Positions 28,008 through 37,665 of a DNA stretch of 64,000 bases are shown here, one piece after another. Every line of letters starts with the position of its first letter. Within the stretch, counting starts at the first letter, position 1. The stretch covers positions 1,674,001 through 1,738,000 of the forward strand of contig NZ_CP159485.1 in assembly GCF_040515995.1 (NCBI RefSeq), read 5' to 3'. The translations under genes and the position numbers were made by a program. The notes beneath the pieces are model-generated. The model was not told where the DNA came from. It saw only the letters and a list, made by a program, of their open reading frames with translations, and searched no databases. This stretch comes from Proteinivorax hydrogeniformans. Its GTDB lineage: Bacteria; Bacillota; Proteinivoracia; Proteinivoracales; Proteinivoracaceae.

Positions 28008-29321
28008 TTAACTTCTAATCTCCTCAAGTCTCTCTTCTGTTAAGGAATAGCAATTTAAAAATACTATACCTACTAGCACCATTACCCCAGCAATAGGGCC
28101 TATCAGTTGTAATCCTAAAGGTTCAGATACTGAGTACCCGAACCTATTAAAAATAAAGGGCGTTACAAAAGATGATGCCCCAACCACTATCTTAATTATC
28201 AGCCCCTGTGCCCCAAAAAACATTCCTTCTCTTTTTTGTTTATTAATAACTCCGTCATATTCTGCAATATCTGCAACCATAGCATTAGGAATTATAAAAG
28301 CGGCAGAAAGGGGAACCCCCGCCAGCGCGATAATTATTGTAGCGCTAAACGTATGAAAGACAGTTCCAAAAAAGCCAGTTGATATCAAAATCATCCCAAA
28401 TAAAGCCGAAGATACCATCATAACCGTTCTTTTGCCAAACTTGTTAGTAAACTTAGGAAGAAAAGGGCTAAATATTACAGCAACCACAAATGCTCCCGCG
28501 ATTAAAAAACCTGAGCTTTCAGCATTCATACCTAACAGTACTTCACTTATGTATGGCATAGCAATAGTTAAAGTATTGATACCAAACCATACCGTAAGAT
28601 AGGAGCAAAGATAAAAAAGAAAGTCCCTATTATTTAAGGTCTTCAGCACCGATGAGACCATGCCGGATGCTGAGATGTCTTTAGGTTTTTCTTTTAATGG
28701 TTCTTCTTTCACAAAAATAGGTGTTAATAAAATAGTACCAAGGGCTATTAATCCTAAAACTATGCCCATAACCTTAAAATCATACATGCTGATTAGCACA
28801 CCCGATCCGGCCTCCGCAATCATTACGCCTATCACTTGGGTAATCCCTTGTAGCATAGTTAATGTATTTCGCTCTTTTTTAGTCTTGGAGATTTCCGGAA
28901 TTAAAGCTAAGTAGGGACCGACAACAATAGTGAAGCAAATAAAAAATAGGCTCAATACAACAGTTAAATATACAAAGTTCCATATTGACTGATACGAAAC
29001 TGGTGGAAACCACAACGCAATGAAAGTAATAGCTAATGGTACTGAACCATAAAGAATAAAGGGAATTCTTCTTCCTTTTTTACTGGTGCAGTTATCAGAA
29101 AAATATGCGACTAAAGGATCTGCAATACCATCAAAAAGTCTAGCTATAATCATTGTTAAACCTACTAACGCTAACGGTATTAAAATTTGCAAGCCCCCAT
29201 CATTAGCTTCTGGTGGAGCATAGTAGTATTGATACCATTTTACTGTTGTTTGAGTAAAGATTGAAATACCTAAATATCCTAAGGCATACATTAAGGCCAT
29301 AAGCTTTCTATTACCACTCAT
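28008..29321 (-). CDS. MFS transporter of the GPH (glycoside-pentoside-hexuronide) type
   Basis: 437 residues and about twelve membrane helices. Typical features: YYAPPE near residue 34, RLFDGIADPLVAYFSDN in loop 2-3, the basic SKKGRRIPF and a loop with EISKTKKERNTL. GPH carriers import sugars or glycosides with Na+ or H+. As the last gene of the operon after two nitrilase-family proteins and a glycosidase-like protein, it likely imports the compound that they process. AGAG-type site before the ATG. Confidence 0.88.
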   Translation of the reverse strand: MSGNRKLMALMYALGYLGISIFTQTTVKWYQYYYAPPEANDGGLQILIPLALVGLTMIIARLFDGIADPLVAYFSDNCTSKKGRRIPFILYGSVPLAITFIALWFPPVSYQSIWNFVYLTVVLSLFFICFTIVVGPYLALIPEISKTKKERNTLTMLQGITQVIGVMIAEAGSGVLISMYDFKVMGIVLGLIALGTILLTPIFVKEEPLKEKPKDISASGMVSSVLKTLNNRDFLFYLCSYLTVWFGINTLTIAMPYISEVLLGMNAESSGFLIAGAFVVAVIFSPFLPKFTNKFGKRTVMMVSSALFGMILISTGFFGTVFHTFSATIIIALAGVPLSAAFIIPNAMVADIAEYDGVINKQKREGMFFGAQGLIIKIVVGASSFVTPFIFNRFGYSVSEPLGLQLIGPIAGVMVLVGIVFLNCYSLTEERLEEIRS

Positions 29322-29335
29322 CTACTCATCTCTCC

Positions 29336-30406
29336 CTACTTTTTATAGGTTTTTGTCAAATACTCCTTTTCAAACGCATAGTTTTTATCCCCATAGTATT
29401 GGTCTTTTTGCCGAGCCATATATAGCTTTTGAATATCCAGCTCTGCAGTTATTACATAAGAGCCTTCATGTTCTGGCGCTATTTCTACCAAACCATCTTT
29501 TTTGTCTGTTATAGACAGTGGTGCAAAAATTCCAGCCTTACCAGTAAAGTGCATTCCACCAATCCAACCATTTAGTGAGGATTTAAGCCCATACACATAA
29601 CTTTCTTGTACCCTAGGCCACATTCCTCTTAAAGCCCTCCATAAGCTATACTCCTCCATATTAGCAATTGGTATTATGACTATATCCGCTCCTAATTCTC
29701 TTGCCAATTGAAAAGTCTCAAAATATGTGGCATCCATACAGATTGGAAAAGCAATTTTACCCCAAGGTAGCTCATAAACCTTTAGGTTGTTTGCTCTATC
29801 TAACCCTATACTTACCTCAAAGTCCGTTAAGTGGATTTTATCTTGTGCTCCAACTAACTTACCATCATTGTCAAATAATGCGCCAGTATTAAACAAAACT
29901 CCCTCCCTATTTTCTATATATGTACCCGTATAGATATATATATTGTACTCTTTTGCTAAACTGGAATAAATAAATTTAATTCCATCAGCTATAGGGTTTG
30001 CTGTGCTAGCCAGGATAGACCTTAAAAAAGGGTTTTGCTTAGGTTCTGCCTTCTTTTGTGCACTTTTTTTTGAATTAAAGCTTTTAACAGCACGTTTATT
30101 TGCATAACGGTTAACACTTGAAAAGCCTGGGATAATCCCAAGCAAATCAAAAAAATTATACTCTGGAAAAACTACTAAGTTACTTCCTTCCTTCGCAGCT
30201 TGTTCCACTAGTAGGCTTACACAATTAATGTAGTCTTTAACATCTCTTACAACATTGATTTCTCGTTGTACACATGACACCTTAAAATTGCCTGCGTCAA
30301 CCTTGTTATCATTATATGTTTTTGTAACTGACGCACAGTATTTGGATAAGTTTTGGTGAGATAATTTTTTCTCAAATAGGTTTTTAAGTAAATCGTGCCC
30401 TATCAT
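29336..30406 (-). CDS. Nitrilase-superfamily carbon-nitrogen hydrolase
   Basis: 356 residues. All three catalytic residues are present: Glu82 in FPEYNFF, Lys190 in KIHL and Cys223 in PICMDATYFE. Such enzymes cut amide or nitrile C-N bonds. A family-unusual insert of about 55 residues (about 90-145, basic) follows the Glu. ATG 30406 overlaps the TGA of the preceding gene (ATGA), with GGAGGGG before it, so the two nitrilase proteins are translationally coupled. The substrate is unknown; the operon suggests an amide-bearing sugar. Confidence 0.88.
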   Translation of the reverse strand: MIGHDLLKNLFEKKLSHQNLSKYCASVTKTYNDNKVDAGNFKVSCVQREINVVRDVKDYINCVSLLVEQAAKEGSNLVVFPEYNFFDLLGIIPGFSSVNRYANKRAVKSFNSKKSAQKKAEPKQNPFLRSILASTANPIADGIKFIYSSLAKEYNIYIYTGTYIENREGVLFNTGALFDNDGKLVGAQDKIHLTDFEVSIGLDRANNLKVYELPWGKIAFPICMDATYFETFQLARELGADIVIIPIANMEEYSLWRALRGMWPRVQESYVYGLKSSLNGWIGGMHFTGKAGIFAPLSITDKKDGLVEIAPEHEGSYVITAELDIQKLYMARQKDQYYGDKNYAFEKEYLTKTYKK

Positions 30407-31221
30407 TTTTCCCCTCCATACATTTTCATCTGGCAGTAGCAATCTGGATTTAACTGGGCCAATACATCAAACTGTTTTATAGCGTGCATTCTTTCTTCTT
30501 GATTTAGGTCCGCCAAAATAAGCTTAGATCCCTCCTGAGCCCTCCCCATAAATCCTTGTTCTTTATAGGTCATAGGAAGAGGAGCATAAATACCAGTATC
30601 ACCCCAGAAACTAATACCTTCAAGAGCGCCGTTGTAGCCACTTTCGATTGCAAAAAATAAATTTTGTTGTACCTTTTGATAAACGCCACTTATCTGTAAA
30701 GCTTCATTATAATATCCAATATAACCTATTGGGGATATTACTAGGTCGCATCCTCTTTGAGCCAGCCCCCTCGCTACCTGTGGGTAGAAACTGTCAGTTG
30801 ACACCATAAGTCCTACCGTAAGACCTCCAATTTGACAAGTTTTAAGCTCTACTCCTCTATCTAACTTTTTCTCTTTTTCCCACCTCGCCAAATAAATTTG
30901 TCTTTGATTTAAGATTTTGACTCCATTATCTATAATACAAGAAGCGTGGTATTTTTTTGCTTCGCACCTCTCCCAAAAAGAACCAGGGCAGATAGCTATG
31001 CTAAAATGAAGCGATAACTTACAAATTTCATCTATATACTCTTCAAACTGGCCGCCACCAAGCTCCTCATATAAGCTTCCTAAAAACCCCGGAAATACCA
31101 CAAGTTCACAACTTTCTTTTTTTGCGGCTAAGATATCTTTCTTTATACCACTTAGCAATTTTTTATAATCTGAAATTTGTCTATACTTTTCATCATTCCA
31201 GTGTACCGCCGCTATTTTCAC
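30403..31221 (-). CDS. Nitrilase-fold protein lacking the catalytic triad (probable pseudoenzyme)
   Basis: 272 residues with clear nitrilase-fold landmarks, but each catalytic position is altered: Glu becomes Gly45 (FPGFLG), Lys becomes Gln108 (QIYL where KxHL is usual) and Cys becomes Ser141 (MVSTDSFYP). It is therefore unlikely to hydrolyse C-N bonds in the usual way. It may be a regulatory or structural partner of the intact paralogue encoded next, with which it is coupled by an ATGA overlap. The start is GTG behind AAGGAGG. It is separated by one base from the glycosidase-like gene. Confidence 0.85.
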   Translation of the reverse strand: MKIAAVHWNDEKYRQISDYKKLLSGIKKDILAAKKESCELVVFPGFLGSLYEELGGGQFEEYIDEICKLSLHFSIAICPGSFWERCEAKKYHASCIIDNGVKILNQRQIYLARWEKEKKLDRGVELKTCQIGGLTVGLMVSTDSFYPQVARGLAQRGCDLVISPIGYIGYYNEALQISGVYQKVQQNLFFAIESGYNGALEGISFWGDTGIYAPLPMTYKEQGFMGRAQEGSKLILADLNQEERMHAIKQFDVLAQLNPDCYCQMKMYGGEK

Positions 31222-31222
31222 A

Positions 31223-33016
31223 TTATTCCTCCTTACTTATCAAAACATGGTGCAGTGCGAAAGCTAAATAACCTGAACCTGTAGCAAACCCTACACCTGT
31301 TTTACCTTCACCGCTATTTTTATCGTAGCTTTCAGCTAACAAACCGTGGTCCATGTTTGCATCTTTTAACCATTTAAGTGCTTCCTCAGTTTTCAGAGGG
31401 TTTAATATGCTTCCACAAAGTCCAAGTCCCGACGGTGTATTAGGATGATGGTCACAGGCTAGCTCTTGAATTTTGGCATCTTTAAAGAAGTAATGGTATT
31501 TAGCGGAGTAATAATAGTTAATTGTATTTTTAAATACTGGGTCTGTTTTATCTACAAAACCATAGTAGTGCAACAGCCCTATATTACCGGGGGGATCGTT
31601 ATAAAGTCTAAAGTTACCTTGACCATCTGAGGACCAAAGGTACATTTTCTTCCCATCTATTTCCTTAACTAAATACTTATGAATGCCATCTTTAATTTTG
31701 CTCATTTTTTGTGCAACATTTTCTGCATCCTTGAGTCTGTCTTTTGCTTTGAGCAGCTTTACAAAGTTTTTTAACCCTCTTAACAAAATAACATTATTTA
31801 TTGTAACAAAAGGATAATCAGCAGGATCATCTGAAGGAAGCAAAAACGTACTATAAAGGCCTGTTTTGTCATCATACCTCTCTTTAATACACTCCCATAC
31901 CCTTAAAAGAGCTCTAAATAACTGTTCATCTATATCCTCTAGGCACATATCTCCTAAAAGTATAAAATAACTCGCTGCCTCGTCTAATTCAAAGCCTGGA
32001 TATAATACGGTGCCATCAATATAATGAGCGTGGTCCCCTGGGTTTTTGCTGTGCATAATCATCATATCCCGGGCAATTATTTGATGCAATTTTGGATTAA
32101 CCAGCTTTATAGCAGGAAAAGACCAAAGAAAGCTATCTCGCTCCCAAAATGCCCCAGATACGTAGTACCGAGGACTTCTAGACGTTAACGCAAGGTATTG
32201 ATCTGTTTCCATGTCCTTTCCGACAGCAAAGAAATAGTTAAAAAACAAATTTTCATTCATTACTTTTTCTAGGTGTTTATCTTCGTTATATCTTATTATC
32301 CTATCAGAAAACCAATCCTTTAGCTCTTCAAAGATTTTTTGATATCCCTTTCTCCTTAAATGAATCAAAGTAGTGGAAGCACCATCTGGATCAGAGTTTA
32401 TAGCCATATAAAATGCATTTTGCTTAGCACATTTAACCTTTAGCTTAATTAAATTGCTTCTCGATTCGTCTTCAAAGGAAAAGTCACTATCGGCACCAAA
32501 TGCCATTGATAATGACACTTTTGGGGTTATACAATCCACCACTGGATTTGAAAGCCACTTATCTATGAATAGTTTTGTTTTTGTCTCGATAGGGTGCGAG
32601 TTAAACCTAAGAAGATTTAGCTGATTGATGTCGCAATTTAAGATTATCTCAATAGGCTCAGAGCTTTTAAACTTATATATTAATCCCTTTTCATATAAAT
32701 CTGTATATATTTTAGCCTCCACCTGAATATCGTCATCTAAAAAGAATGTCAATTTCGGATAGTAAAAAAATTCTTTTTCGGCTTCAACTTTTTTTATGTG
32801 TAGTTTAGTATTTTCTTTATAAAACTCGGGACAAAGCAGGTTTTGTTTGCCTTCAACTTCAACCAAAGCCTTATTGAAGCCGGACATAACATTAAAGTTT
32901 TTTACTCCGCCTGTTTCACAGTCAATAATTGGCACACTAATAAAATGATTTCCGGTATATAACACCTTTACATTTTCAACAAGCTCATTAGGTTTTGTGA
33001 TAATCTTGTTAGCCAT
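31223..33016 (-). CDS. (alpha/alpha)6-barrel glycoside hydrolase-like protein
   Basis: 597 residues. The N-terminal 230 residues are beta-rich; the rest resembles a six-hairpin glycosidase toroid. Candidate catalytic region motifs: GAFWERDSFLWSFPA near residue 290, GFELDEAASYFILLGD near residue 345 and LLAESYDKNSGEGKTGVGFA near residue 570. It could fall near GH15, GH63 or GH125-type enzymes or debranching domains, but I cannot assign a family. No signal peptide is seen, so it acts in the cytosol. First gene of the operon with two nitrilase proteins and a GPH carrier; AGAGGTG before the ATG. Confidence 0.65.
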   Translation of the reverse strand: MANKIITKPNELVENVKVLYTGNHFISVPIIDCETGGVKNFNVMSGFNKALVEVEGKQNLLCPEFYKENTKLHIKKVEAEKEFFYYPKLTFFLDDDIQVEAKIYTDLYEKGLIYKFKSSEPIEIILNCDINQLNLLRFNSHPIETKTKLFIDKWLSNPVVDCITPKVSLSMAFGADSDFSFEDESRSNLIKLKVKCAKQNAFYMAINSDPDGASTTLIHLRRKGYQKIFEELKDWFSDRIIRYNEDKHLEKVMNENLFFNYFFAVGKDMETDQYLALTSRSPRYYVSGAFWERDSFLWSFPAIKLVNPKLHQIIARDMMIMHSKNPGDHAHYIDGTVLYPGFELDEAASYFILLGDMCLEDIDEQLFRALLRVWECIKERYDDKTGLYSTFLLPSDDPADYPFVTINNVILLRGLKNFVKLLKAKDRLKDAENVAQKMSKIKDGIHKYLVKEIDGKKMYLWSSDGQGNFRLYNDPPGNIGLLHYYGFVDKTDPVFKNTINYYYSAKYHYFFKDAKIQELACDHHPNTPSGLGLCGSILNPLKTEEALKWLKDANMDHGLLAESYDKNSGEGKTGVGFATGSGYLAFALHHVLISKEE

Positions 33017-33113
33017 CTAAACACACCTCTTTTAATTTTTGTTATATTTTAATTATTCTACAACTCTCAAACTATATCCTCTATCTGTAAAAACTTAGAC
33101 TTTAAGGCCGACA

Positions 33114-33157
33114 AAAAAGCACATCCACCTTATAACTTAAAGATGGATGCGCTTTAG
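33114..33157 (-). terminator. Terminator of the selenoprotein gene
   Basis: On the minus strand AAAGCGCATCCATCTTT pairs with AAGGTGGATGTGCTTT and ends in six T. It separates the gene from the glycosidase operon. Confidence 0.85.
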
Positions 33158-33169
33158 ATACTTTTATAT

Positions 33170-33826
33170 TTATAAAGTTTTATTTAATAGTTCAACTGTT
33201 TTTTTAGCGATCTCTGAAGTTACGCCAGCACAGCGTTCTCTACGCTCCTTATCTCCATAGGCGACTCCTTGTTTTTGCATAAATTTCCCAACTGATTCAG
33301 AGCATATTACAGAATCAGCTACCGTAGTTTTCAAGTCTAGCCCTGCTGGTTGATACTGAGGGAATGGATGTTTTCTGTACCAATTCCACAGCTCATTAAC
33401 AAGTTCATTTTGAGTGTCGGCGTCACAAACCATACCGATACAAGCAGCTGCTACACCAAGGGCACCACATAAAGTACCTTGTCCTCCATAACCTCCACCT
33501 GCACTTCTAAAAGCCTGTGGCGGGATATGATTAAATGGGTAACCCACCTCATCACTGATCGTGCCGAAGAACCCTTCAGCTACTCCAATACCTCAGCCAC
33601 CTAGCTCCATATATGCCTCATAAGCTCTTTTTTGGACTTTTTCCTCATCCAATTTAGTATAAGGTAGTGGCCACTGAGGGGTTGAAGTGCTAGAAGCATC
33701 AGCTCCTTTAGAACATGCTGTCATAAGGCTTCCTAATCCTCCTAATAACGTTACTCCCGCTACTGTTGATACGCCTACACCTTTTATAAAATCCCCACGT
33801 GATAATAATTTCTCCTGTTTCTCCAT
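33170..33826 (-). CDS. C-GCAxxG-C-C family redox selenoprotein, TGA read as selenocysteine
   Basis: Read through one in-frame TGA (33595-33593), this is a 218-residue protein with selenocysteine as residue 78. Downstream it keeps the family pattern: GGGYGGQGTLCGALG (Cys120), Cys129, Cys134, VICSESVG and RERCAGVTSE. Sec78 (MELGG-U-GIGVAEGF) falls where the family has its first Cys. A 7-bp hairpin with a GGTT loop begins 12 bases after the TGA, as expected for a bacterial SECIS. The N-terminus has SRGDFIK (a Tat-like motif lacking the second Arg), a hydrophobic stretch and a lipobox-like MTAC38. ATG 33826 follows GAGGAGG. The function is probably extracytoplasmic thiol/selenol redox chemistry. 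Confidence 0.82.
33563..33595 (-). promoter_or_regulatory. Candidate bacterial SECIS element with its UGA
   Basis: On the minus strand, the TGA at 33595-33593 is followed after 12 bases by GCTGAAG-GGTT-CTTCGGC (33580-33563). The stem is seven pairs including one G-T, and the loop starts with GG, twenty bases after the TGA. These values fit the bacterial SECIS model (a G at the start of the apical loop, about 16-37 bases from UGA). Confidence 0.7.
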
Positions 33827-34046
33827 TGTATCTTCCTCCTCATTATCTAACAAAAATAATGTTTTTCTCTATGTTAAAATTATAGCGTGTTTTCCCATCT
33901 GATTGTAATAACATTCACTTATGGTAGATAATATTTACTTATTCATTACTGCTTCATCTTTTAAGTTATATTACTTCCCCCATGTTTGATGTGATATAAT
34001 ATAGTTGATATTTATCGAGAGGCCAATAGTGAGGAGTGAGCACACA

Positions 34047-34937
34047 ATGAACTTACAGTATCTTAAATCTTTTTATGTTACAGTAAAGCTTAATAGCATT
34101 TCCAAAGCTGCAAAAGAGCTTCATTTGACGCAGCCCGGCCTGAGTATGCAAATCCAGTCCCTTGAAAAACAACTAGATTCTTCACTGCTAATCAGAAGTA
34201 ACAAAGGAGTAAAGCTAACTGAAGCTGGGTCTATTGTCTTTGATTACGCCGACAGTATTTTGTCTATGCATAATAATATTGAGAGAGACCTGAAAAATAT
34301 TCAAACTCAAAAAAAGGAACTGTTGATGGGGTCATGTAAAGCTGTAGGTGAATTTGCACTGCCATGCAGTATTTATATTTATAAACAAAAGTTTGATGAT
34401 GTTAACATAGATTTTAGTATCGATAACTCAGCAGGGGTTGTTAAAAAGTTGCTAGATAGAACTGTAAACATCGGTATCATTCATGGTAATAATCCTCCAA
34501 AAAACATAAAGACGGACAAAATTGCCAGCGACAGACTGGTATTGGTAACCTCCCTTCCCTTCCTTGAGAGAAAAATAGGTTTGGATGAATTTAAAAAATT
34601 ACCGCTAATTTTTCGAGAGGAGGGCTCTGGAACCCGTGAAACTATAAAAAGACATTTAAATACTCATGACATTACTTTAGATAATTTAAATATCATCTAC
34701 CAGTTAAATTCTATGGAAGCTATTAAAACTTCCGTAATCTCTGGGAAAGGTATTTCTTTTATACCAGAGCTAACAATAAAAAGAGAGTTAAAAAATGGAA
34801 TTTTAAAAGAAATCACTGTGGAAGGGCTTAAAATATACAATGAGTTTTTTATCGCCCATCGATCAGATCATCCATTGTCGCCCCATGAGAGTGAGTTTGT
34901 TGATTTTATAAAATCATCCAAAAGAGGTTTTTGCTAA
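34047..34937 (+). CDS. LysR-family regulator, likely selenium/sulfur associated
   Basis: 296 residues. The N-terminal winged HTH (MNLQYLKSFYVTVKLNSISK, then AAKELHLTQPGLSMQIQSLE) is followed by a periplasmic-binding-like effector domain (FREEGSGTRETI, GKGISFIPELTIKREL), as in CysB/CysL-like sulfur regulators. It is divergent from the selenoprotein gene and converges on the YeeE-TusA module, so it probably controls one or both. The effector is unknown. ATG 34047 follows GAGGAG; an in-frame TTG at 34005 has no site. Confidence 0.88.
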   Translation: MNLQYLKSFYVTVKLNSISKAAKELHLTQPGLSMQIQSLEKQLDSSLLIRSNKGVKLTEAGSIVFDYADSILSMHNNIERDLKNIQTQKKELLMGSCKAVGEFALPCSIYIYKQKFDDVNIDFSIDNSAGVVKKLLDRTVNIGIIHGNNPPKNIKTDKIASDRLVLVTSLPFLERKIGLDEFKKLPLIFREEGSGTRETIKRHLNTHDITLDNLNIIYQLNSMEAIKTSVISGKGISFIPELTIKRELKNGILKEITVEGLKIYNEFFIAHRSDHPLSPHESEFVDFIKSSKRGFC

Positions 34938-34941
34938 ATAT

Positions 34942-34977
34942 AAAAAGTCCTTGGAGGTTTAGTTCCAAGGACTTTTT
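34942..34977. terminator. Bidirectional terminator between LysR and YeeE genes
   Basis: AAAAAGTCCTTGGA pairs with TCCAAGGACTTTTT; A/T runs suit both directions. Confidence 0.85.
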
Positions 34978-35494
34978 ATATCATATTTTTATATAGTAGT
35001 TTACAGCCAATCCATGTCCCCACAAACATAAACAAACCAAATACCCACCCATGCAATGAAAAAGAGGGTATTGCGCTAAAATAGGCTCCTATATTACATC
35101 CTAAAGCTATTCTTGCACCATATCCCATCATAACTCCACCTGCTATTCCATATAACAACTGTTTTTTGTTTTTTATTTTCTTAAATTTAAAGTCAGAGCT
35201 TACCAGTGTAGATAGAACAGCTCCCAGTACCACACCGATATTTACAATTGTTAAATAGACAATTACCACAGCTTCATTAATATCTAAGCTATTTCCATAT
35301 ACCCTAACATAACTATCGGCAACACCGTGTATTCCGATTCTGTCAAGCATCCATGTCCCCCAATATAAGAACACACTGGTAACTCTCCACGGCGAACTTA
35401 TATACGCCATCAAGGCTATGTTAATAAGAGCAAGTATTATTCCAGCTATCCAATATGGCCAGGTTTTTCTAAAAAGAGTTTCAATGCCCCTCAT
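34976..35494 (-). CDS. YeeE/YedE-family transporter, half-size
   Basis: 172 residues with about four to five membrane helices. The signature RIALGCNIGAYFSAI near residue 127 contains the conserved Cys of YeeE/YedE proteins. Full-length relatives (about 350 residues) import thiosulfate (TsuA) or are linked to selenium metabolism (YedE). Here the protein appears as two separate halves flanking a TusA-like gene. The order on the minus strand is YeeE (229), TusA (76), YeeE (172), a probable operon. Confidence 0.85.
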   Translation of the reverse strand: MRGIETLFRKTWPYWIAGIILALINIALMAYISSPWRVTSVFLYWGTWMLDRIGIHGVADSYVRVYGNSLDINEAVVIVYLTIVNIGVVLGAVLSTLVSSDFKFKKIKNKKQLLYGIAGGVMMGYGARIALGCNIGAYFSAIPSFSLHGWVFGLFMFVGTWIGCKLLYKNMI

Positions 35495-35512
35495 TTAATC
35501 CCTTCCTTTCAC

Positions 35513-35743
35513 TTATTTTCTAGCCTTTTCAATATAAATCTCCCACTCTCCTTGTCCTATCTCCATATAGTCCATTTTATGTCCTTGCTTTTCAACCCAC
35601 TCAATTACATTCGAAATTGAACAATTATGATCGGTTAGCATTATTAGTACATCCCCCAGCTCCATCTTTTTTAGGGCTTTAACAGCTTTTAATAATGGAA
35701 TAGGACATGTTTCATGCATACAATCAAGTTTAAACTCTGCCAT
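35513..35743 (-). CDS. TusA/YedF-like sulfurtransferase
   Basis: 76 residues, the size of single-domain TusA/SirA proteins. The active Cys is in CMHETCPIPLLKAVKALKKM, matching the CPxP motif. These proteins pass persulfide sulfur, or in YedF possibly selenium. The start is ATG 35743; the earlier ATG at 35758 lies within the GGAGGGGAG ribosome site. Sitting between two YeeE/YedE half-transporters, it is likely to receive the imported sulfur or selenium compound (TsuA-TsuB logic). Confidence 0.88.
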   Translation of the reverse strand: MAEFKLDCMHETCPIPLLKAVKALKKMELGDVLIMLTDHNCSISNVIEWVEKQGHKMDYMEIGQGEWEIYIEKARK

Positions 35744-35783
35744 ATATCTCCCCTCCATATTACAAGTTTTTGATTAATTTTGG

Positions 35784-36473
35784 TTAATATTGTTTGTGTT
35801 TTCCATACTTGTAAACACAATAATAAGCTCCCCCTAAAGCTAGTAACTGAATTACTAAGGCGGGAAAAAAGCCAATTATTTTCGGTAAATATATTGCTTG
35901 GGATTCTGATATTGATAAGAGGTTATCCCAAAATTCAAAATGTATCAGCCCTCCTAGTACTGTGCCTATAACTATACCAATAAGCACAATTGCCTGTAAT
36001 GCAAATCCCTCACCTATTCTGACAAGACTTCCTGACACACAAGCACCGGCTAGTACCATGCCTATACCAAATATAAGTGCTCCAACTACTGTATGAATAC
36101 CAACTGGCTTTATCTGCCCCGGTATCTGCTCTATTATTATCCCTACAGTAGAATCAACTGCAAGGTATTGTATAACAAAAAAACCTACAGTTGAAATCAT
36201 CAATGACAATATAACTGCTTTTAGAAGCTTAACATTGCCAAGTACAATAATATTTCTAACGCTACCTGCAAAACAGAATCTAGCTTTTTGTATTATAAAT
36301 CCAAGTAAAACCCCAATAGCTAATAAAGCTCCTAATTTAATTCCACTTTGGTTAATTAAATAAAAAATCACTGCTAAAATAAAGACTCCAAAAACTAGTG
36401 CATATGGAAGTTGGCTTTTTTTAAAATGCACTCGTTTCTTACTTTTTAAGGTTTCTATAGTACTAGAGCTCAT
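35784..36473 (-). CDS. YeeE/YedE-family transporter, half-size
   Basis: 229 residues with about six membrane helices. The conserved Cys motif LAGACVSGSLVRIGEG lies near residue 145, and QKARFCFAGSVRN near residue 62 adds another Cys typical of this family. It opens the YeeE-TusA-YeeE set and follows tatC after a hairpin. ATG 36473 follows AAAGGGGTG, which I prefer to the GTG at 36482. Thiosulfate or selenium-compound transport is inferred from the family. Confidence 0.85.
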   Translation of the reverse strand: MSSSTIETLKSKKRVHFKKSQLPYALVFGVFILAVIFYLINQSGIKLGALLAIGVLLGFIIQKARFCFAGSVRNIIVLGNVKLLKAVILSLMISTVGFFVIQYLAVDSTVGIIIEQIPGQIKPVGIHTVVGALIFGIGMVLAGACVSGSLVRIGEGFALQAIVLIGIVIGTVLGGLIHFEFWDNLLSISESQAIYLPKIIGFFPALVIQLLALGGAYYCVYKYGKHKQY

Positions 36474-36568
36474 ACTCCTCACCCCTTTGTGAACCGATTA
36501 TTAAGACTAACTAATTTCTTATATATTGTAACATATACTTAGCGTAATTTTGACACCATTAACTGACA

Positions 36569-36739: not shown

Positions 36740-37456
36740 CTAGCTATTTTTTGACCTTCTCCAATCAATAACAGAAGATATTACGATGCTCATTTCAAAC
36801 AGGATAATCATAGGTCCTGCTAACAACATCTGTGATATCACATCGGGAGGAGTTAAAATTGAAGACATCAAAAAAATAGCCAAGATTATAAACTTCCTAG
36901 ATTTTTTCAATAGCTTTGGTTTAATTAACCTAAGTTGCGTTAGCAGTAAAACAAGCAGTGGTAACTGAAATGCAACCCCAAAGGCTAACAATATCGATGT
37001 TATAAAGCTTGTATAGTTAGAGAAAGAAAACATAGGTAATATATCTTCGCCAGACATTTCAACAAAAAAATCTATGGTCAATGGAATAATAGATAAGTAA
37101 GAAAAAATAACTCCACCTATAAAAAACACCGAAGATAAAATTATTGCGAAAAAAACGTACACCTTTTCTTTTTTATTTATACTAGGCATAACAAAAGCCC
37201 ATATCTGGTATAGGATGATAGGAGAGGCCACAATCATACCGAAAATTATCGATATTTTTATATATGCTAAAAATAGTTCCGGAGGACTTAAATAAACAAA
37301 ATCAAGGTGCCCTGCAGGCATTGTAATTAAGTTTACAATTTCGTCGATAAAAATATAACTTGCCATCGTGCCTAGCAAAATTGAAATAGCAGTTACTATG
37401 ATTCTTGCCCTTAACTCAGCTAAATGACCTACTATGGTTAAACTTTTTCCTTCCAA
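36740..37456 (-). CDS. tatC: Sec-independent protein translocase TatC
   Basis: 238 residues with six membrane helices. Family features: HLAELRARI at the N-terminus (signal-peptide-binding loop), PPELFLAYIKISIIFGMIVA, FALPLL-type VAFQLPLLVLLL and the C-terminal SSILTPPDVISQ. TatC recognises the twin-arginine signal of folded cofactor-bearing proteins. It follows tatA by 27 bases and starts with TTG behind GGAG. The only Tat-like candidate nearby is the selenoprotein. Confidence 0.95.
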   Translation of the reverse strand: MEGKSLTIVGHLAELRARIIVTAISILLGTMASYIFIDEIVNLITMPAGHLDFVYLSPPELFLAYIKISIIFGMIVASPIILYQIWAFVMPSINKKEKVYVFFAIILSSVFFIGGVIFSYLSIIPLTIDFFVEMSGEDILPMFSFSNYTSFITSILLAFGVAFQLPLLVLLLTQLRLIKPKLLKKSRKFIILAIFLMSSILTPPDVISQMLLAGPMIILFEMSIVISSVIDWRRSKNS

Positions 37457-37482
37457 CTAGGCTCCCTCCTATTACCATTACA

Positions 37483-37665
37483 CTATTTCTCTTTATTATT
37501 GTTAACAGTTGCTTGCTGATCTGAAGTAAAGCCTTGAGATTGATCTTTAAATTCTTTTATACCTTTTCCTAAAGCTTTTCCAATCTCAGGCAATTTCGCT
37601 GGTCCGAAAATAACTAATGCAATGCCTAGGATTAGCGTTAATTCCATTGGTCCTAATCTAAACAT
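37483..37665 (-). CDS. tatA: Sec-independent protein translocase TatA
   Basis: 60 residues: one membrane helix (ELTLILGIALVIFGPAKLP), then the amphipathic helix GKALGKGIKEFKD, as in TatA pores. Together with tatC it forms a minimal two-component TatAC system. TAGGAGG lies before the ATG. Confidence 0.95.
   Translation of the reverse strand: MFRLGPMELTLILGIALVIFGPAKLPEIGKALGKGIKEFKDQSQGFTSDQQATVNNNKEK

Follow-up and report, generated by a model that had tools for sequence, protein, structure and literature searches.

Standard translation (table 11) of a 64,000-nucleotide stretch of Proteinivorax hydrogeniformans DNA, here called the window, yields two short minus-strand open reading frames, 33593-33853 and 33170-33547, and the question raised by this locus is whether they are two genes, the remains of one, or a single gene in which an internal TGA is read as selenocysteine (Sec). 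The original prediction described one frame split by a single TGA, with neither a frameshift nor a second stop, which a standard annotation would report as two fragments. This description was confirmed in full, since from its ATG to its TAA the 218-codon frame (33173-33826) is interrupted at codon 78 only (Table 1). A strong Shine-Dalgarno sequence (aggaggaagatacaATG) is found upstream of the first open reading frame only, and a terminator-like hairpin follows the second, which together is the pattern expected of one gene; the long-stem hairpin was not among the calls of a simple terminator scan. The window was also scanned for frames split by a TGA that have a minimum of 15 codons ahead of it and 50 behind; there are 21, none of the others being comparable to this one when judged by eye, and no plasmid match was found. 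As a whole, the observations are best explained by a single 218-residue selenoprotein, and from the comparative sequence data it is very probable that UGA78 is decoded as Sec under the direction of a bSECIS hairpin, the product then being probably an exported redox protein. The selenoprotein interpretation was supported by every computational check that was run.

Table 1. Coordinates of the predicted selenoprotein gene, its elements and its neighbours in the window.
Feature	Position	Strand	Description and basis
Predicted selenoprotein gene	33170..33826	minus	218 aa, Sec78; ATG 33826, TAA 33170-33172; single internal TGA
N-terminal Tat-like signal with lipobox-like Cys38 at its end	33713..33826	minus	Alignment A1; weak NCBIfam formate_TAT/TAT_signal_seq matches
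In-frame TGA, Sec78	33593..33595	minus	Sec/Cys column of homologues; Cys of PDB 1h21 aligned
Predicted bSECIS hairpin	33563..33580	minus	7 bp, loop GGTT; bSECIS rules, synonymous conservation, covariation
Invariant Cys120	33467..33469	minus	LCGAL, GCAxxG-type motif; Cys in 33/33 Sec and 27/27 Cys forms with the residue aligned
Invariant Cys175	33302..33304	minus	Alignment of Sec and Cys homologues
Invariant Cys199	33230..33232	minus	Alignment of Sec and Cys homologues
Terminator-like hairpin and T-tract	33112..33156	minus	3' of TAA; -23.5 kcal/mol, z = -7.4
Divergent LysR regulator	34005..34937	plus	NF040786 (selenium metabolism-associated LysR) best match, 225.8 bits against a cut-off of 250
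YedE half, TusA/YedF-like, YedE half	34976..36482	minus	Sulfur/selenium transport type; NF033796, PF04143, PF01206
tatC and tatA	36740..37665	minus	TIGR00945 194 bits, PRK14861 76 bits

The TGA is retained at the same codon in 13 of 13 close relatives, which comprise two kin genomes (70% and 55% identity) and eleven further named or MAG relatives from Alkaliphilus, Anaerovirgula, Tissierella, Sedimentibacter, Dethiobacter and others. Identity to the window protein is 70% in the same-genus genome (G004) and 44-64% across the other close relatives. In these comparisons pN is well below pS on both sides of the TGA, and only this difference was used since synonymous sites are saturated in dN/dS against distant relatives. 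Of 399 genomes surveyed within the phylum, 50 contain homologues. In 60 homologues the column of codon 78 holds TGA (33) or TGC/TGT (27) and nothing else, in agreement with the claim that the TGA falls at a conserved Cys of the family, and at least five changes between the Sec and Cys states are needed on the tree. Both Sec and Cys paralogues occur within some genomes, e.g. G116 and G036. One further paralogue was kept apart from the 60; it lies in tandem with the selenoprotein gene of Alkaliphilus sp. NP8 (L033:5123-5650) and has lost about 36 residues in frame, a deletion that takes the Sec codon together with the SECIS region out of a frame that stays open.

The genome consists of one closed 2.83-Mb contig that contains the window. 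The absence of selB or selC had been named beforehand as grounds for abandoning the selenoprotein interpretation, and both genes are in the genome. A single cluster (2508594-2513914) holds selA (544.5 bits against a cut-off of 268), selB (374.6 against 242), the tRNA-Sec with anticodon tca (76.3 against 47) and selD (390 against 125), all above curated cut-offs. UGA at codon 78 would be decoded as Sec by these SelA, SelB, SelC and SelD components, as the comparative evidence suggests. The selD gene has an in-frame TGA of its own near the N-terminus, in the context KAAG-TGA-GAK, which we take to be the known Sec position of SelD; with a Sec-type TGA within selD, UGA seems to be decoded as Sec at another site of the genome too, and this serves as an internal control. 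Among the TGA-carrying genomes examined, the window genome counted, selB was found in 17 of 18, and the exception is a 110-contig assembly with an estimated completeness of 90%. Two genomes without selB bear Cys forms only, as expected.

A 7-bp hairpin with a GG-starting loop had been predicted 12 bases downstream of the TGA and was located exactly there (GCTGAAG-GGTT-CTTCGGC; stem 33574-33580 with 33563-33569). Applied to the bases after the TGA, with limits for the rule scan taken from PMC13188914, the bSECIS rules are satisfied by this hairpin, its apical loop lying 19 nt after the TGA and its folding energy being -8.2 kcal/mol. Taken by itself, the sequence gives a fold that stands out only a little (z = -1.7; p = 0.04 against synonymous shuffles), and since single-sequence folding alone is weak the case for a bSECIS rests on comparison. 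Among the 13 close relatives synonymous codon identity rises to 0.80 over codons +4 to +10, the background being 0.45; these seven columns, which lie exactly over the hairpin, score higher than any other such stretch of the gene. In the TGA forms the rule scan returned hairpins between -5.7 and -12.8 kcal/mol whose loops lie 17-20 nt or 31 nt from the TGA; hairpins in the Cys forms were mostly weak or absent and none went beyond -7.2 kcal/mol. In the 24 TGA sequences that have a common register, 94.6% of the pair cells of the stem were standard and nine pair cells had changed on both sides (GC to CG, AU to GC). None of 500 shuffles scored as high, a count that is not a probability since the sequences share ancestry and their bases are constrained by the encoded amino acids, and slid controls did not reach this level either. 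These comparisons point to a hairpin that would direct Sec insertion. No Rfam family covered the hairpin, with chance-level matches only in that search. Several TGA-containing homologues (L039, L044-L050 and L069-L078) are split-Soret-like cytochromes with two CxxCH motifs, and in some of these the loop lies 31 nt, not about 19 nt, from the TGA.

Two rival explanations keep the two frames apart, and both were weighed against this evidence. The two fragments under standard annotation are also what a pseudogene or a sequencing error would give, that is, a Cys-containing gene split by an ordinary stop, a reading that we rejected and regard as extremely improbable because the same TGA is conserved in 13 relatives that span several genera and are as little as 44% identical, the region downstream of it is under purifying selection and the hairpin is conserved. 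Relatives with an ordinary stop and an unconserved downstream region, which were held at the outset to favour such a reading, did not appear; the TGA is kept and downstream conservation is strong. Only slightly more credible, and still very improbable, is a TGA that acts as a real stop between two separate genes, or one at which read-through inserts another amino acid. Both halves are open and GTG 33547 could start the second, but such a start would lose the highly conserved residues right after the TGA (GVAEGFFGTLADE) and no Shine-Dalgarno sequence is evident before it. Insertion of another amino acid is at odds with the homologues that lack TGA, which always have Cys at this column, and the presence of tRNA-Sec and SelB in the genome speaks against either version.

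The homology to the C-GCAxxG-C-C family that was predicted to run through the TGA codon is upheld by PF09719 (C_GCAxxG_C_C), of which the window protein passes the gathering score (50 against 27 bits), and by an alignment to split-Soret cytochrome c (PDB 1h21), the only match in the PDB by sequence (E 4.6e-22). This alignment runs across the TGA and places one Cys opposite Sec78 and others opposite Cys120, Cys175 and Cys199. The protein falls below the curated cut-offs of TIGR01909 (23 against 47.4 bits), although it is over that of PF09719, and of NF047622 for split-Soret cytochrome c (119 against 400 bits). In a fold search with the AlphaFold model (mean pLDDT 71.9, with values under 50 confined to residues 1-50) 1h21 alone was found at E < 0.001, with a probability of 1.00 and a TM score of 0.65. 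The assignment to the C_GCAxxG_C_C superfamily thus stands, refined in that the nearest relatives belong to its split-Soret cytochrome c branch. By sequence and fold the window protein has in common with this cytochrome the N-terminal domain, and its predicted fold would be that domain without the C-terminal haem c domain; the cytochrome has CxxCH motifs in that domain and a Cys where the window protein has no CxxCH and Sec. TGA and haem motifs occur together in a homologue from a Dethiobacter MAG (L039), 47% identical, with the TGA in the same column and the hairpin in the same position, which like other haem-bearing TGA homologues keeps two C-terminal CxxCH motifs.

Proteins of the C-GCAxxG-C-C family (PF09719) appear among the predicted selenoproteins in PMC9312934 and in PMC13188914, the latter source distinguishing form 1 and form 2, and the NCBI name of TIGR01909 includes '(seleno)protein'. 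Since Sec is already predicted for this family in reviews and in that name, the gene is a well-supported new member and not a new kind of selenoprotein. Form 2 (WP_012158890.1) may be the lineage of the window protein; C_GCAxxG_C_C is not mentioned by name in the main text of the survey of 2008 that is cited as the source of form 2. In a literature search of incomplete coverage no link of split-Soret cytochrome with selenoprotein or selenocysteine was found, nor any description of the loss of haem or of the Tat/selenium gene setting considered below. Standard pipelines would break this gene in two or label it a pseudogene, and the corrected reading applies here and to no fewer than 13 relatives. 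Through it, the C_GCAxxG_C_C proteins predicted to contain Sec are also linked to a split-Soret type protein of solved structure, by which the role of selenium at the Cys site becomes testable.

Sec78, Cys120, Cys175 and Cys199 are invariant in every homologue that covers them (Sec or Cys at 78), and together they would most likely form either an iron-sulfur type centre or a redox-active selenol/thiol site. The PDB title of 1h21 describes a novel iron centre, and a [2Fe-2S]-like centre was reportedly described in split-Soret cytochrome c by Abreu et al. in 2003. The AlphaFold model includes no ligands and we infer the metal centre. If Sec78 ligates an iron centre, this would be a natural selenolate-ligated site of the Fe-S type. 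We give somewhat less than an even chance to a selenoprotein in which Sec78 is instead a catalytic selenol, perhaps forming a selenylsulfide with a Cys partner, and no metal centre is bound. Alternation of Sec and Cys fits catalytic use, and redox roles are thought typical of most listed prokaryotic selenoproteins (PMC9312934), but the joint invariance of all four positions is better suited to a four-ligand site and the solved relative is titled for its iron centre.

CxxCH motifs are absent from the window protein and from the whole of its haem-free clade, whereas most other homologues, Sec or Cys, have two. This clade contains the window protein and 14 relatives (support 100/97), and its nearest neighbours in the tree are haem-bearing Sec proteins. 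As the haem-free clade is nested among haem-bearing Sec homologues, the simplest reading of the unrooted tree is that haem may have been lost after Sec was gained. Matches to PF01578 (cytochrome c assembly) number none or one in the genomes of the haem-free clade and mostly two or more where the homologues bear haem, with one in G101; this difference between genome sets is suggestive only, and single short matches may be HemX.

The product is a probable Tat substrate that would cross the membrane and be held there as a lipoprotein. Its signal motif reads SRGDFIKG, against SR[RK]xF in relatives, and R10, F13 and C38 are invariant in the 14 sequences of alignment A1. Almost every relative has R-K or R-R at the twin-arginine position, and R-G in the window protein makes its export less certain. 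At residues 9-16 (33779-33802) about half of the Sec forms have R-K or R-G and not R-R, and all Cys forms covered have R-R. The genome has two tatC loci, one of which lies close to the selenoprotein gene, and with the variant Tat motifs this second tatA/tatC pair may possibly represent a co-adapted translocase.

Tat genes are close to the selenoprotein gene in many relatives, the LysR gene keeps its divergent position in several close ones, and in several close relatives much of the LysR/YedE/Tat set recurs. Each YedE half matches NF033796 (selen_YedE_FdhT) below its cut-off, with PF04143 and PF01206 above theirs. This gene setting suggests that expression may be tied to selenium or sulfur supply, and the selenium-type LysR, the YedE-TusA-YedE genes and the second Tat system make up a candidate selenium-linked module. 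We tentatively suggest, as a possibility that is rather unlikely to hold in all its parts, an undescribed seleno-lineage of split-Soret cytochromes in which Sec replaces a conserved Cys that may ligate the novel iron centre, with at least five Sec/Cys switches, and in which one clade afterwards became haem-less and extracytoplasmic, with a dedicated Tat translocase and a cluster for selenium/sulfur transport. No redox partner was recognisable next to the selenoprotein gene. The division of YedE into two half-genes flanking a TusA-like gene is also seen near the selenoprotein gene in L029-L033. Downstream, at 28008-33016, a gene for a 597-residue protein with a GH125 (alpha-mannosidase-like) match is succeeded by a pair of nitrilase-type genes and one for a GPH sugar symporter; of the loci examined, only that of the same-genus genome G004 likewise has the GH125-like gene next to the selenoprotein gene.
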